Shown here piece after piece: positions 15,201 through 31,676 of a stretch of DNA of 39,799 bases. How positions within the stretch are numbered: the stretch's first letter is position 1; the number at the start of each line of letters is the position of its first letter. Below the pieces are notes generated by a model that saw only the letters and a list, made by a program, of their open reading frames with translations, had not been told where the DNA came from and made no database searches. Location: NCBI GenBank assembly GCA_016788565.1, contig JAEUSP010000126.1, forward strand, positions 1-39,799, read 5' to 3'. A program made the translations under genes and the position numbers. Source of the stretch: Chlorobiota bacterium (GTDB lineage: Bacteria; Bacteroidota; Ignavibacteria; OLB7).

Positions 15201-15974
15201 GACCAACTTGCTGGGAAGACGAAGCTGGCAATCACCCCAAGCGGGCCGCTCTATTTTGTGCCGTTCCAAGCAATCGGGCCGGTGGGGGATGATGGCCAAG
15301 TGCACCCGTTGCTTCGCGACCGCACCATTTTCTACATCAACGACCTGTCGGTGTTTTTGCAGGATGGGGCAACAAAAGGGGAACCCAAAATCATCGGGTT
15401 TGGCAACGCCGATGGGTCGCTTCCCAGTGCCGAACGTGAGGTGAAGGAGATCACAAAACTCTATCCTGGATCGGAGGCGTTGCTGGAAAGCGCGGCAACG
15501 GAAGACCGCGCAAAAAATATCCCGGAAGGGTTCGGCATCATCCATTTTGCCACGCACGGGAATTTGGATTACCACGACTTCAAAAATTTCTACCTGACTC
15601 TTGCACCCAACAAAGCGGCGGGGGAAGATGGGAAGCTGACGATGGAGGAAATCTGGGGGATCACAACGCTTCCGGCGTGCCAGTTGGTGACGCTATCGGC
15701 CTGCAACACCGCCGTCACCGACGAAAGCCTTGCCGGCTGGCCGATCAATCCCGCCAACGCTTTCCTGACCATTGGCGTTCCCCGTGTTGTGGCATCATTG
15801 TGGCAAGTGGACGACGACGCAACCGCAATCCTGATGGAAGATTTCTACAAACACCTTCCCCAGCTTGGAGCCGCCGAATCGCTTCGGCAAGCGCAGTTGC
15901 GGTTGGCCAGCAACCCCCAGTGGTCCCAGCCCTTCTACTGGGCCCCGTTTGTGCTGTTCGGGGATTGGAGGTGA
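12297..15974 (+). CDS. Exported TPR-CHAT protein (caspase-like peptidase)
   Basis: A 1225-residue protein. Residues 1-22 form a signal peptide (hydrophobic run, then AVAVAQ). Residues about 25-320 are an unassigned beta-rich region. Residues about 330-770 hold roughly ten TPRs of the Kinesin-light-chain/TPR_12 type (for example ALNNLGDAVSQQGDYGRALQLY). A coiled-coil-like helix region covers about 770-870. The CHAT domain fills the C-terminal 350 residues. The catalytic dyad is intact: His1087 in HFATHG and Cys1136 in SACNT. CHAT domains are caspase/separase relatives. The ATG at 12297 is chosen because it begins the signal peptide and overlaps the upstream stop. The substrate is unknown, and no CRISPR or gasdermin gene is nearby. 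Confidence 0.9.
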   Translation: MFRSLLLLTLISCAWSAVAVAQVGRLDTMTFYFRVPPKIEHGKNRMTTVQIPVPRSVRLVVGETSGRVYGVGFDETAQRNLTMLATATVLKQQQQVATIRITQTAEDDSLRAGDAIELRGVMDTAIFRGDLFHPARFGLGFLTMEGQPLAEPSAVMESTDSALEQSVVGAITNQIHEGAKRLSANTPVDSALLAPLPGGLFRGTSMIAAMEHATQRDVRSFLRHISNSPSIYFSRDVVAASGWLMWAANDAPITTNDLRERLLSAPSDSAQVQLMDGYRSLLTNDLLLAWDSDAEDLFQQKQAKQAEQMERVMLQAAQLQRDTVAIAWGRYRLGRFLAQSTPAVAADHYRAAQQLFAGIGERDGEGWARLGLGWIAAVQGKPKEAEQEYNAALLLFQASGQQGYEAYALNNLGDAVSQQGDYGRALQLYQRGLSLAQSLGDAEKTASAWSAISLMYRMTGELEKALSTAQSGFAVWKSANNNPWGMAQAFTTLANVYTAQGEFQQALTNYTSADSIYRQLNDTNSRITTLNNSGNVYFFQGDYNHALANFREALAIARAANTRDESEPLLLSNMGEVLYEQHRFDTAEQCLKEALELARQREIRRMIASTHRLLGKLWLLQERYPQAEQALLLADSLFTAGKEADDLMDVRGALGELYYRRNEIQKARQILQRAIDSGRSMGLYHFLYQPLTTLGLIERDAHNNPRAIELLSEAAGVVERLRDRVAGGENARKLYSSGTARVRIYESLIALLIEQGEIERALEYLQRSNNDELRERFGALERSIGDTARRKILDQDRLMKARLDNLADQITKEQSKPNAQPEKIASLKNIISVAEGEYVKFVRETITAQPELRSHFGGTVNPIDLRAKKQRIPRDAAVAMYLLGETQLYIFAATTDTVIARVVPAARSEVEAKINRMYRLASDPDAAAARAKTARTNGTGNPPEPDREQQSYERIAGELYQLLIDPIADQLAGKTKLAITPSGPLYFVPFQAIGPVGDDGQVHPLLRDRTIFYINDLSVFLQDGATKGEPKIIGFGNADGSLPSAEREVKEITKLYPGSEALLESAATEDRAKNIPEGFGIIHFATHGNLDYHDFKNFYLTLAPNKAAGEDGKLTMEEIWGITTLPACQLVTLSACNTAVTDESLAGWPINPANAFLTIGVPRVVASLWQVDDDATAILMEDFYKHLPQLGAAESLRQAQLRLASNPQWSQPFYWAPFVLFGDWR

Positions 15975-16268
15975 GGGGAATGCCGAATGCCGAATGTCGA
16001 ATGCCGAATGTCGAATTGTTTTTTTCAACTGACCACTGACCACAATTCCTCAGTGAGGGAAATGCCAAATGCCGAATGCCAAATGCCGAATGTCGAATTG
16101 CTTCTTTCAACGGACCACTGACAACGGACAACTGACCACAAGCCCTCAGTGAGGGAAATGCCGAATGCCGAATGTCGAATTGCTTCTTTCAACGGACCAC
16201 TGACAACGGACAACTGACCACAATCCCTCAGTGAGGGAAATGCCAAATGCCAAATGCCAAATGAAAAG
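15975..16268. repeat. Compound heptanucleotide repeat array, four units
   Basis: Begins directly after the CHAT stop. Each unit of about 75-95 bp joins a small palindrome (CCCTCAGTGAGGG, absent from the first unit), a run of GAATGCC/AAATGCC/GAATGTC heptads, a linker GAATTGCTTCTTTCAAC, and a run of TGACCAC/TGACAAC/GGACAAC heptads. Units start near 15976, 16049, 16144 and 16227, the last truncated. Heptad numbers differ between units, which suggests slippage within an already duplicated array. This fills most of the 381-bp gap before the cupin gene. Confidence 0.85.
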
Positions 16269-24353: not shown

Positions 24354-24391
24354 TGATTGCAATGATGGGACTTCGCGGTGCGGTGGAAATT

Positions 24392-24426
24392 GGTCAGTGG
24401 TCAGTAGTCAGTGGTCAGTGGTCAGT
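24392..24426. repeat. Heptanucleotide array (GGTCAGT)5
   Basis: Four GGTCAGT and one AGTCAGT heptads in a row. Read on the other strand this is (ACTGACC)n, the same motif as the TGACCAC heptads in the array downstream of the CHAT gene. That makes it a dispersed family rather than a one-off. Confidence 0.85.
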
Positions 24427-24492
24427 GGCAAAGAAGGGAGTGGATTTTTTCTTTGAGCGAGATTGTTAATGGCCTTCAATTAACTGATTCCT

Positions 24493-24611
24493 GAAACCCG
24501 ATTCCCGAAACCCGACTCCCGAAACCCGACTCCCAAAAACCGAAACCCGACTCCCGAAACCCGATTTCCGAAACCCGATTTCCGAAACCCGATTTCCGAA
24601 ACCCAATTCCC
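24493..24611. repeat. 14-bp (2 x 7) tandem repeat abutting mutL
   Basis: Eight copies of a 14-mer built from two heptads, GAAACCC plus GATTCCC (variants GACTCCC, GATTTCC, AATTCCC). A single 7-base interruption (AAAAACC, 24535-24541) sits between copies 3 and 4, so the heptad register is kept over 119 bp (17 x 7). The array ends three bases before the mutL ATG and leaves no room for a normal ribosome-binding site outside it. Confidence 0.9.
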
Positions 24612-24614
24612 GAC

Positions 24615-26570: not shown

Positions 26571-26601
26571 GGAATAATTGGAGGTGCTAAATTTTTTTTT
26601 G

Positions 26602-26640
26602 AGAGTGTGTCACGTTTTCCCAAGTTGCGGCATAATAGTA
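26602..26640 (+). promoter_or_regulatory. Possible promoter of the sigma-factor gene
   Basis: A TGTCAC-like hexamer and an ATAATA hexamer (26632-26637) are spaced about 18 bp apart in an AT-richer stretch, about 80 bp before the sigma-factor ATG. This is a weak match judged by eye and could be fortuitous. Confidence 0.25.
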
Positions 26641-26648
26641 GGTGACAA

Positions 26649-26680
26649 CGTTGTTGAAAGAATGCGCCCAAGCAACAACG
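26649..26680 (+). promoter_or_regulatory. Inverted repeat in the sigma-factor leader
   Basis: CGTTGTTG (26649-26656) and CAACAACG (26673-26680) are perfect 8-bp inverted repeats with a 16-nt loop, placed between the possible -10 and the start codon at 26720. It could be a leader hairpin or an operator. There is no T-run, so it is not a terminator. Confidence 0.4.
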
Positions 26681-26719
26681 GTGTCGCTCCTGTGCCTTAC
26701 CCTAAATTATCTATGTAGC

Positions 26720-27331
26720 ATGAAGTCTTTGGTGCCCCACCAGCGAACGGAAGAGTTTCTGCAGTTATACGAAAAAGAGGCTCTGCCGCTTCTGAAAAAA
26801 TGGCTTAGCATTCATTGCAGCGATAGATATGCGCGGGAAGAGATTCTTGCACAGACAAAAATACAAGCATGGAAGGGGTTTGAGGTATGGGATGGCCTAC
26901 GAAGTTTTAGGGTTTGGGTGTTGGGTATTCTTAAGCATGAATCGGAGGTGTATCATCGCCGCGAGGAGCGCAAAGGGATGCGTGGAGGAGCCAACGTAGA
27001 GTTTGATGAGGAATTGCACTCGGGAGCGGGAGCGGGAGCGGGAGCGGGAGCGGGAGCGGGAGCGGGAGCGGGAGCGGGAGCGGGAGCGGGAGCGGGAGCG
27101 GGAGCGGGAGCGGGAGCGGGAGCGGGCATTGAAGCATTGCTGGATTGGGAGATAATCAAGGAGATACTGACGGAGGAGGAAGCAGAAATCCTATACTTAC
27201 ATTATGGAGAGGACTATAGTTATGGCGAGATTGCCGAACTATTCGGGAAGAAGGTAACGGCGATACGAAAACAAGCGAACCGAGCAAAACAGAAAGTTCA
27301 ACGCCGATTTCCAGAAAGGAACGGTAATTGA
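26720..27331 (+). CDS. Sigma-70/ECF-like sigma factor with an in-frame Gly-Ala repeat
   Basis: A 203-residue protein. Residues about 10-90 resemble sigma region 2 (LQLYEKEALPLLKKWL, then FEVWDGLRSFRVWVLGILKHESEVYHRREERK). Residues about 145-195 resemble region 4 with a helix-turn-helix (EEEAEILYLHYGEDYSYGEIAELFGKKVTAIRKQANRAK). Between them, residues 102-135 are 17 perfect Gly-Ala pairs encoded by a hexanucleotide repeat. The ATG at 26720 starts the conserved part; the longer frame from 26642 runs through the leader hairpin. No anti-sigma gene is adjacent. The region is AT-richer than its flanks. The next gene, a secreted Cys-rich protein, is a candidate target. The family call rests on region 4 and is fairly sure. 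Confidence 0.75.
   Translation: MKSLVPHQRTEEFLQLYEKEALPLLKKWLSIHCSDRYAREEILAQTKIQAWKGFEVWDGLRSFRVWVLGILKHESEVYHRREERKGMRGGANVEFDEELHSGAGAGAGAGAGAGAGAGAGAGAGAGAGAGAGAGAGIEALLDWEIIKEILTEEEAEILYLHYGEDYSYGEIAELFGKKVTAIRKQANRAKQKVQRRFPERNGN
27022..27126 (+). repeat. Hexanucleotide microsatellite (GGGAGC)17 inside the sigma-factor gene
   Basis: Seventeen perfect GGGAGC copies (27022-27123) plus a trailing GGG. Being a multiple of three, the unit changes protein length by two residues (Gly-Ala) per copy and never shifts the frame. G3-N3 spacing also makes it a textbook G-quadruplex-forming sequence on the coding strand. The absence of any point substitution implies recent expansion or ongoing turnover. 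Confidence 0.97.
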
Positions 27332-27556
27332 GCAATAAATAGGTGAAAAAAATCGAGATGCTATGCTCTCGTAGGGAAAGAAAAGCTCCATCAAGCTATC
27401 TGTTATCAAACTTGGAAAAGAAGAAACTGAAAGGTGCGATAATCAATGATATGATAACAGCAAAATCTGCGTTTTGAATTTTCAAACGATTTTCTGGTTA
27501 GCCACATGCTCTTCCCTATTGGGTAGAGGCCATAATACACACTTAATAACCCTTAT

Positions 27557-27562
27557 AGGAGG
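27557..27562 (+). promoter_or_regulatory. Shine-Dalgarno sequence deciding the start of the secreted-protein gene
   Basis: AGGAGG ends four bases upstream of the ATG at 27567. It selects this start over the in-frame upstream one at 27474 and places a clean signal peptide at the N-terminus. Confidence 0.75.
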
Positions 27563-27566
27563 CCCT

Positions 27567-28097
27567 ATGCTTCAGAGATTATCGGCACTAATTCTCAGTA
27601 CTGTGCTGTACTTGGGAGTTACTCCAGCATCGGCAACAGTAACGTTATCCGTTCCAAATTATCCAACGGTTGCGCAACTAGAGACTGGTTGGAATAATGC
27701 ATTCATTGCAATTCTAACCGCAGCCCATGGGACGGCGCCAACAATTACAGGCACTACAACCTATCAAGGTGCAGGCGGAGCGATTTATGTGGTATCTACT
27801 TTTACGGTAGGATCAACAACTGGGTCTATACTTGGTACGGCTTTTAACCCAGCGACAGCAACATCGTTAGGGAACGGTAATTATAGTTACGCTGCGAACA
27901 AAGGATTCCGTTGTGAGCGCAGCGATGGTTCCTGTTCTTGTACCGCACGGCAAGCCATCAAACCGGACGTAATTATCCAAGAATGCGTTTGTGATGGGGG
28001 AAGTGGAGGGTGTGCATTAATCAACATTGATGGCCAGTTCACTGGAACCTACGACCTTAATCCAGCTAATTATTCTAGCTTGCCAACTATGAACTAG
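27567..28097 (+). CDS. Secreted protein with a six-cysteine C-terminal cluster, unknown function
   Basis: 176 residues. The first 23 form a signal peptide (LQRLSALILSTVLYLGVTPASA). The mature part is rich in Thr, Ala, Gly and Asn, with a possible beta-rich region (TITGTTTYQGAGGAIYVVSTFTVG, shortened here). The C-terminal third holds six cysteines at 116, 123, 125, 140, 142 and 149, in the pattern C-x6-C-x-C ... C-x-C-x6-C, a near mirror-symmetric spacing. This suggests disulfides or a metal site outside the cytoplasm. No family is recognised. It follows the sigma-factor gene by 235 bp, shares its AT-richer composition, and is closed by its own strong terminator. Confidence 0.7.
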   Translation: MLQRLSALILSTVLYLGVTPASATVTLSVPNYPTVAQLETGWNNAFIAILTAAHGTAPTITGTTTYQGAGGAIYVVSTFTVGSTTGSILGTAFNPATATSLGNGNYSYAANKGFRCERSDGSCSCTARQAIKPDVIIQECVCDGGSGGCALINIDGQFTGTYDLNPANYSSLPTMN

Positions 28098-28135
28098 ATT
28101 TTATCTGGAATATTCACGTGGTTAAAATTCAATAA

Positions 28136-28170
28136 AAAAGCACCGAAGGAATTGATCCTTCGGTGCTTTT
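28136..28170. terminator. Bidirectional intrinsic terminator
   Basis: A perfect 15-bp stem (AAAAGCACCGAAGGA 28136-28150 with TCCTTCGGTGCTTTT 28156-28170) and a 5-nt loop. A-runs and T-runs on the two flanks make it efficient in both directions. It separates the secreted-protein gene from convergent gcvH. Confidence 0.93.
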
Positions 28171-28185
28171 CTATTCGGGCTTTGC

Positions 28186-31203: not shown

Positions 31204-31676
31204 ATGATGGAAGATTGTTCGATGGTTTGCTGATCCTGTCCACCCAAACTCCAATGATGAGTTGGGGTATCGGTGAAAAAGCCGCCAAAGATATTGTTTG
31301 CCCCCTCACTTATGCAAACAGGGGTGTGTAACGGGAAGAAAGGGAGCCGGGCGGAATGGCGAATGTTGAATGCCAAATAGAAGAGTGAAGAATGCTGGAG
31401 TTTTCACCGAACGCTGCTCTCCGCAGATGCTGAGCCAGTCGGAAGTATGAGTGGAGCCATGGGAATGGTGAATACCGAATGTCGAATGCCAAATAGAAGA
31501 GTGAAGAATGCTGGAGTTTTCACCGAACGCTGCGCTCCGCTCATGCTGAGCCTGTCGAAGTATGAGCGCAGCCACCGGAATGGCGAAGTTTCTACCAGTT
31601 TCTCCCGTCGCGCATTGGCTTTGCTTGCTGCGGCCAATCTGCAGAGAGAGGGGCGGGGGGATTTGGGGTAGCAATG
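31204..31676. other. Gene-free region between tRNA-Cys and ackA, largely repeats
   Basis: 473 bp. The part near the tRNA probably holds the promoter for tRNA-Cys, efp and accBC (minus strand), but no clear elements were recognised. From 31354 on it is filled by the duplicated repeat unit described separately. No ORF resembles a gene. Confidence 0.5.
31354..31578. repeat. Tandem duplication of a ~110-bp compound repeat
   Basis: Unit 1 (31354-31462) and unit 2 (31463-31578) share GAATGCC-type heptads, AAATAGA, AGAGTGA, then AGAATGCTGGAGTTTTCACCGAACGCTG and the palindrome CGCTCATGCTGAGCCTGTCGAAGTATGAGCG (degenerate in unit 1; its arms in unit 2 are at 31538-31544 and 31562-31568). The palindrome also occurs at 212-244, and the AGAGTGA and GAATGCC heptads occur in the other arrays. 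This ties the families together. Confidence 0.85.

Follow-up and report, generated by a model that had tools for sequence, protein, structure and literature searches.

What a long, perfectly repetitive hinge is doing between the two DNA-binding domains of a bacterial sigma factor is the question raised by a gene on contig JAEUSP010000126.1 of a Chlorobiota bacterium (GCA_016788565.1), which we analysed within a stretch of 39,799 nucleotides, hereafter the window. A sequence-only reading of this DNA had proposed that the number of repeat units retunes promoter choice. We arrive at a different answer: the array is probably a slippage-prone, tolerated extension of the linker in a genus-specific extracytoplasmic function (ECF) sigma factor, and the effect of the array on initiation would be graded at most, without retuning of promoter spacing. 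The features on which the argument draws are collected in Table 1.

Table 1. Position and basis of the features discussed, in window coordinates
Feature	Position	Strand	Basis or remark
Promoter-like element GTCACGTTTTCCCAAGTT-N6-TAATAG-TAG-GTGAC	26609..26646	+	Common to six hinge-bearing genes; putative promoter
ECF-type sigma factor gene, 203 aa	26720..27331	+	ATG-to-stop ORF; Pfam, TIGR02937, AlphaFold, fold comparison
Sigma region 2 domain, about residues 1-85	26720..26974	+	AlphaFold helices 6-84; sigma2 fold matches; Pfam weak
Acidic linker segment EFDEELHS, family-conserved	26999..27022	+	Alignment of family
17 perfect GGAGCG units, (Gly-Ala)17 hinge, 34 residues, 102 bp	27023..27124	+	Coding strand G-quadruplex-like
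Linker end and sigma region 4 domain	27125..27331	+	PF08281 4.4e-11; AlphaFold helices 133-201
Downstream ORF of 176 aa with a signal peptide and a Cys-rich C-terminal part; candidate cassette partner	27567..28097	+	

The identity of the protein was established by profile searches, structure prediction and fold comparison. Region 4, C-terminal to the array, matches PF08281 well over the gathering score (4.4e-11). Region 2 scores 17.5 bits, under the 24-bit Pfam cut-off; in the paralogue C75, which is 57% identical to the window protein, it scores 35 bits, over the cut-off. The window protein also scores over the cut-off of TIGR02937, the ECF-type sigma model. AlphaFold modelled sigma2 (residues 6-84) and sigma4 (residues 133-201) with confidence, which was low only at residues 103-135, the Gly-Ala repeat. 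When the model was compared with known folds, residues 2-80 matched region 2 of SigR (Z 12.1, rmsd 1.9, 78 aligned), and both domains were matched by Bartonella RpoE (Z 15.3, rmsd 3.4, 153 aligned), CnrH (Z 13.8, rmsd 3.5, 141 aligned) and SigW (Z 12.8, rmsd 4.2, 146 aligned). Regions 1 and 3 are absent from its 203 residues, in which Pfam and AlphaFold place sigma2 and sigma4 as the sole domains; a region 4 helix-turn-helix, a region 2 and only these two domains are among the marks of an ECF (group 4) sigma-70 factor. By sequence and modelled fold the protein is a two-domain ECF sigma factor, predicted to bind RNA polymerase, and the call of a sigma factor made from the letters alone can be narrowed to this type.

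The same reading had described a 17-copy, perfect, in-frame repeat lying precisely between regions 2 and 4, and the ORF, Pfam and AlphaFold agree, as does TRF, which reports 17.7 copies at 100%. In the other register the array reads GGGAGC x17 (27022-27123), in the coding register GGA GCG (27023-27124), and the frame is intact across all units. Across the entire 4.58-Mb genome the unit's tetramer was found at 14 places, every one within this array, and the probability that all 34 codons would be GGA or GCG by chance is about 1e-24 at local codon usage. Array statistics were taken over 1.53 Mb of the 4.58 Mb (33% of the genome), a sample of which the C119 locus was deliberately made part. It holds 80 perfect arrays of at least 24 bp, 61 with period 7 and 10 with period 14; just two have period 6, both within genes of this sigma family, and the window array ranks among the three longest. 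The codon probability and the rarity of period-6 arrays in the sampled 1.53 Mb together exclude a chance origin. A genome-wide habit of hexamer slippage was ruled out for the sampled third, where the remaining arrays are mostly heptamers. Perfect heptanucleotide arrays are abundant genome-wide and, in the window, are found at 380-441, 15971-16263, 24391-24613 and 31360-31587. Other sigma genes of the genome also hold coding repeats, since another ECF sigma factor, at L030 (1421-2137, minus strand), ends in a repeated SPTAQ motif and overlaps an ORF with a KPNRT repeat.

At the fourfold rate of mutL, about 8.6 synonymous changes would be expected in the 34 codons since the species split; the array is pure, with 0 seen (P about 2e-4), which argues for recent slippage. 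Slippage may well continue at the present day. The array is, in addition, a long pure run of short units (17 units, 102 bp), as in simple-sequence-repeat contingency loci. A G-quadruplex on the coding strand had also been suggested, and this stands in part: the array fits a G3 quadruplex pattern (G4Hunter 1.54), which may aid its slippage, but the motif is not shared by the GGCACA array of the paralogue C119 (G4Hunter 0.33). The G-quadruplex was accordingly rejected as a family-conserved feature, being absent from this Gly-Thr-encoding array.

Could the copy number be a guess of the assembler, or the gene be losing its function? This is a draft genome of 137 contigs, the assembled 102-bp array may be mis-sized, and region 2 is under the Pfam cut-off. 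Set against this, the reading frame survives in every unit, both domains are modelled confidently, the promoter-like element described below is retained, and similar arrays are present at three loci in two genomes. Because arrays recur in two genomes, we regard assembly error or gene decay as quite unlikely.

Six hinge-bearing members of the family were compared: the window gene (C100), C75 and C119 of its own genome, and C51, C81 and C72 of one congener, the MAG JADZEY01, deposited as Armatimonadetes bacterium SJ842. All six carry Gly-X dipeptides at one place, behind an acidic FDEELH-like motif. At this same aligned position the hinges are GA17 (C100), GA2 (C75) and GT10 (C119) in the window's genome and GA2 (C51), GA8 (C81) and GA3 (C72) in the congener; a more distant homologue, C36, is without the repeat. 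C75 and C81 are clear orthologues: they have the same neighbour, their proteins are 93% identical, and over 167 aligned codons they differ at 22 nucleotides. Their hinges of 2 and 8 units stand six whole units apart. Copy number that differs between related genomes, a further mark of contingency loci, was thus found for this pair, which is paralogous to the window gene. The window gene itself is without a clear orthologue in the congener. C51 of the congener (G001), which occupies the mutL site there, was rejected in this role: it is the sister of C119 of the window's genome (G000), with support of 1.00, and 17 versus 2 units at the mutL site is therefore a comparison of paralogues. The C119 hinge is built of 10 GGCACA units instead of GGAGCG, and because the hexamer is a different one, expansion at this point occurred more than once. 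Copy changes, as had been predicted, do shift the hinge by whole in-frame units (2 and 8 in the orthologues; 2, 3, 10 and 17 among the paralogues), and a length-variable, slipping sigma hinge is well supported.

Among 391 genomes of the class, the DNA pattern for the hinge was found only in the two congeneric genomes, barring G060; this match was discarded as a GA hinge elsewhere in the class, there being no Gly-Ala run in the matched letters. Judged by this pattern, we are dealing with a small sigma family that is restricted to the genus among the 391. In the open-access literature we found no paper on repeat hinges in sigma factors.

In the ECF factors, the largest sigma class, no part is less conserved than the linker. 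Between regions 2 and 4 it measures 62-63 residues in the window protein, 32-36 in the GA2-GA3 members and 28-49 (median 37) in 27 distant ECF factors. Since the linkers of the GA2-GA3 members fall within the ordinary ECF range, the array is added length and the short forms are the normal ones. In Mycobacterium tuberculosis SigH and SigL, Bartonella RpoE, SigW and CnrH, sigma2 and sigma4 are likewise joined by a linker, and the fold matches to such factors extend over both domains; what sets the window protein apart from known ECF factors is the length of this linker and the pure Gly-Ala microsatellite within it. The array begins immediately after FDEELHS. An FDEELH lies at the equivalent place in distant ECFs of Acidobacteria and Chthoniobacterales (L055, L075 and L081); these loci were partly chosen by this motif and so give no measure of its frequency. 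Solved ECF complexes show the linker passing into the active-site cleft, touching the template strand and exiting via the RNA exit channel, with sigma2 and sigma4 bound to core RNA polymerase as separate domains (PMC6372665, PMC6411747). By analogy of position, the acidic motif would occupy the cleft part of this path and the Gly-Ala string the exit part.

We propose that replication slippage in the hexanucleotide microsatellite would add or remove whole Gly-X dipeptides, so that length changes at one fixed point, behind the acidic FDEELH and before the first region 4 helix. The conserved FDEELH segment probably performs the work of the linker in the active-site cleft. The Gly-Ala string would then be surplus slack further along the linker, in the C-terminal portion presumed to thread the RNA exit channel, and RNA polymerase could accommodate the surplus since sigma2 and sigma4 dock on it separately. 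The length of the string would alter initiation quantitatively at most, through promoter escape or release of sigma4. A long insertion may not be neutral, however, because replacement of the sigma-H linker by a disordered sequence abolished activity in vitro (PMC6411747).

All six hinge-bearing genes have a promoter-like element 96-148 nt upstream of the start codon. Its form is near GT(C/A)ACGTTTTGGCAA(A/G)TT, followed by 15-16 nt that include a TATA-like hexamer and then by GTGA(C/T). From the start of the block to the TATA-like hexamer the distance is 24 nt for GA17, 24 for GA2, 24 for GA8, 26 for GT10, 26 for GA2 and 25 for GA3. Thus, the geometry is constant within 1-2 nt over hinges of 2-17 units and does not track hinge length; in the C75/C81 orthologues, with 2 versus 8 units, the spacing is identical. 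The sequence-only reading held that hinge length sets the -10/-35 spacing that the polymerase can use. It is true that the repeat connects the domains that bind the -10 and -35 elements, and that ECF factors demand a strict spacer length (PMC6411747), but the six distances are unaffected by hinge length, and the path of the linker in solved complexes indicates that, inside RNA polymerase, it does not alone fix the distance between the domains. We therefore reject this idea as the leading explanation and regard it as very unlikely.

The element looks like a family-specific promoter, and the regulon may also include genes with other promoters. Under a weight matrix the sites of the family score 28-32, and no other site in 1.53 Mb exceeds 18.7. 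A whole-genome search of the two genomes, allowing at most 2 mismatches, returned the sigma genes and two further matches, of which the one examined, C109:36091 of G000, was dismissed because it sits inside coding sequence; no convincing other regulon member carrying the element emerged from this search or from the matrix scan of 1.53 Mb. Autoregulation through the shared element is a candidate mode of control. In two of the six genes the element opens with GTCAC and closes with GTGAC, which form an inverted pair separated by about 33 nt; others come close to this arrangement, and the pair could also be a regulator site.

Tolerated slack is not the only way to read the length series. Selection might act on hinge length as a graded control that is inherited: slack in the exit channel would change abortive initiation, pausing or promoter escape such that regulon strength varies with copy number. 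At least two paralogues have expanded at precisely the same point and with different hexamers, the orthologues differ by 2 versus 8 units, and the ECF linker takes part in initial transcription and in escape (PMC6372665). That expansion recurs at a single site in two species could reflect selection for changing length, beyond tolerance. Half of the members have a linker of ordinary length, however, and the same observations are accounted for by neutral slippage in a disordered, permissive site, and so we consider selection of this kind doubtful. The broader proposition, that the family uses a slipping linker microsatellite as heritable graded control of initiation, acting on escape, abortive cycling or sigma stability, with cells of one population differing in regulon output, likewise strikes us as unlikely, if worth bearing in mind.

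A further possibility, by analogy, is that the Gly-Ala run impedes an AAA+ protease such as ClpXP, in which case copy number would tune the half-life of the sigma factor or leave a one-domain fragment. Gly-Ala tracts 11-37 residues long influence how ClpXP processes stable substrates (PMC9531181), and the hinge, at 34 Gly-Ala residues, is the same dipeptide at a similar length. The reported effect is confined to very stable domains, however, no degradation signal is known for the window protein, and the paralogue C119 has Gly-Thr instead. The window run also differs from the protease-hindering repeats (PMC9531181) in that it joins two transcription domains. Control through proteolysis is thus highly improbable, and we retain a tolerated, slipping linker extension as the preferred reading.

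A close parallel among known repeat systems is the in-frame repeat switch of Salmonella mutL, in which small tandem units likewise gain and lose copies through slipped-strand mispairing, altering a core protein without reliance on a promoter switch (PMC2955026). The Salmonella array is short, with functional and defective alleles (PMC2955026), whereas the linker array here reaches 17 units and would act, if at all, by degree. By coincidence, the neighbour of the window sigma gene is also mutL, and the array lies outside it. To our knowledge, the effect of ECF linker length on initiation is little explored. The family offers a natural graded series of 2, 3, 8, 10 and 17 dipeptides, nearly pure slack inserted at one point of homologous proteins, and because nature provides this series the influence of linker length is directly testable. 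Should copy number vary within populations, the hinge would be a contingency locus that works without frameshift in the transcription machinery itself.

The surroundings of the gene differ between the two species. On the mutL and gcvH sides synteny with the congener is kept (86% and 85% identity). Between mutL and gcvH the window has the sigma gene and the 176-aa secreted Cys-rich ORF; in the congener, C51 precedes a 426-aa lipoprotein gene and a thioredoxin-like ORF. Within this interval (26571-28185; L024/L040) each species has a different sigma cassette, and the secreted or lipoprotein genes downstream are unrelated between them, a pattern that resembles an exchange of cassettes at a single site. 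An adjacent gene for a cognate anti-sigma factor is common, though not essential, for ECF sigma factors; none is recognisable beside the window gene, whose neighbours are mutL and the secreted Cys-rich ORF. The 176-aa ORF matched no Pfam family over the cut-off, a result that holds for all six downstream ORFs tested. At L021, L023, L024 and L026, several sigma genes precede genes for small secreted proteins, some of them Cys-rich, or lipoprotein or thioredoxin-like genes.
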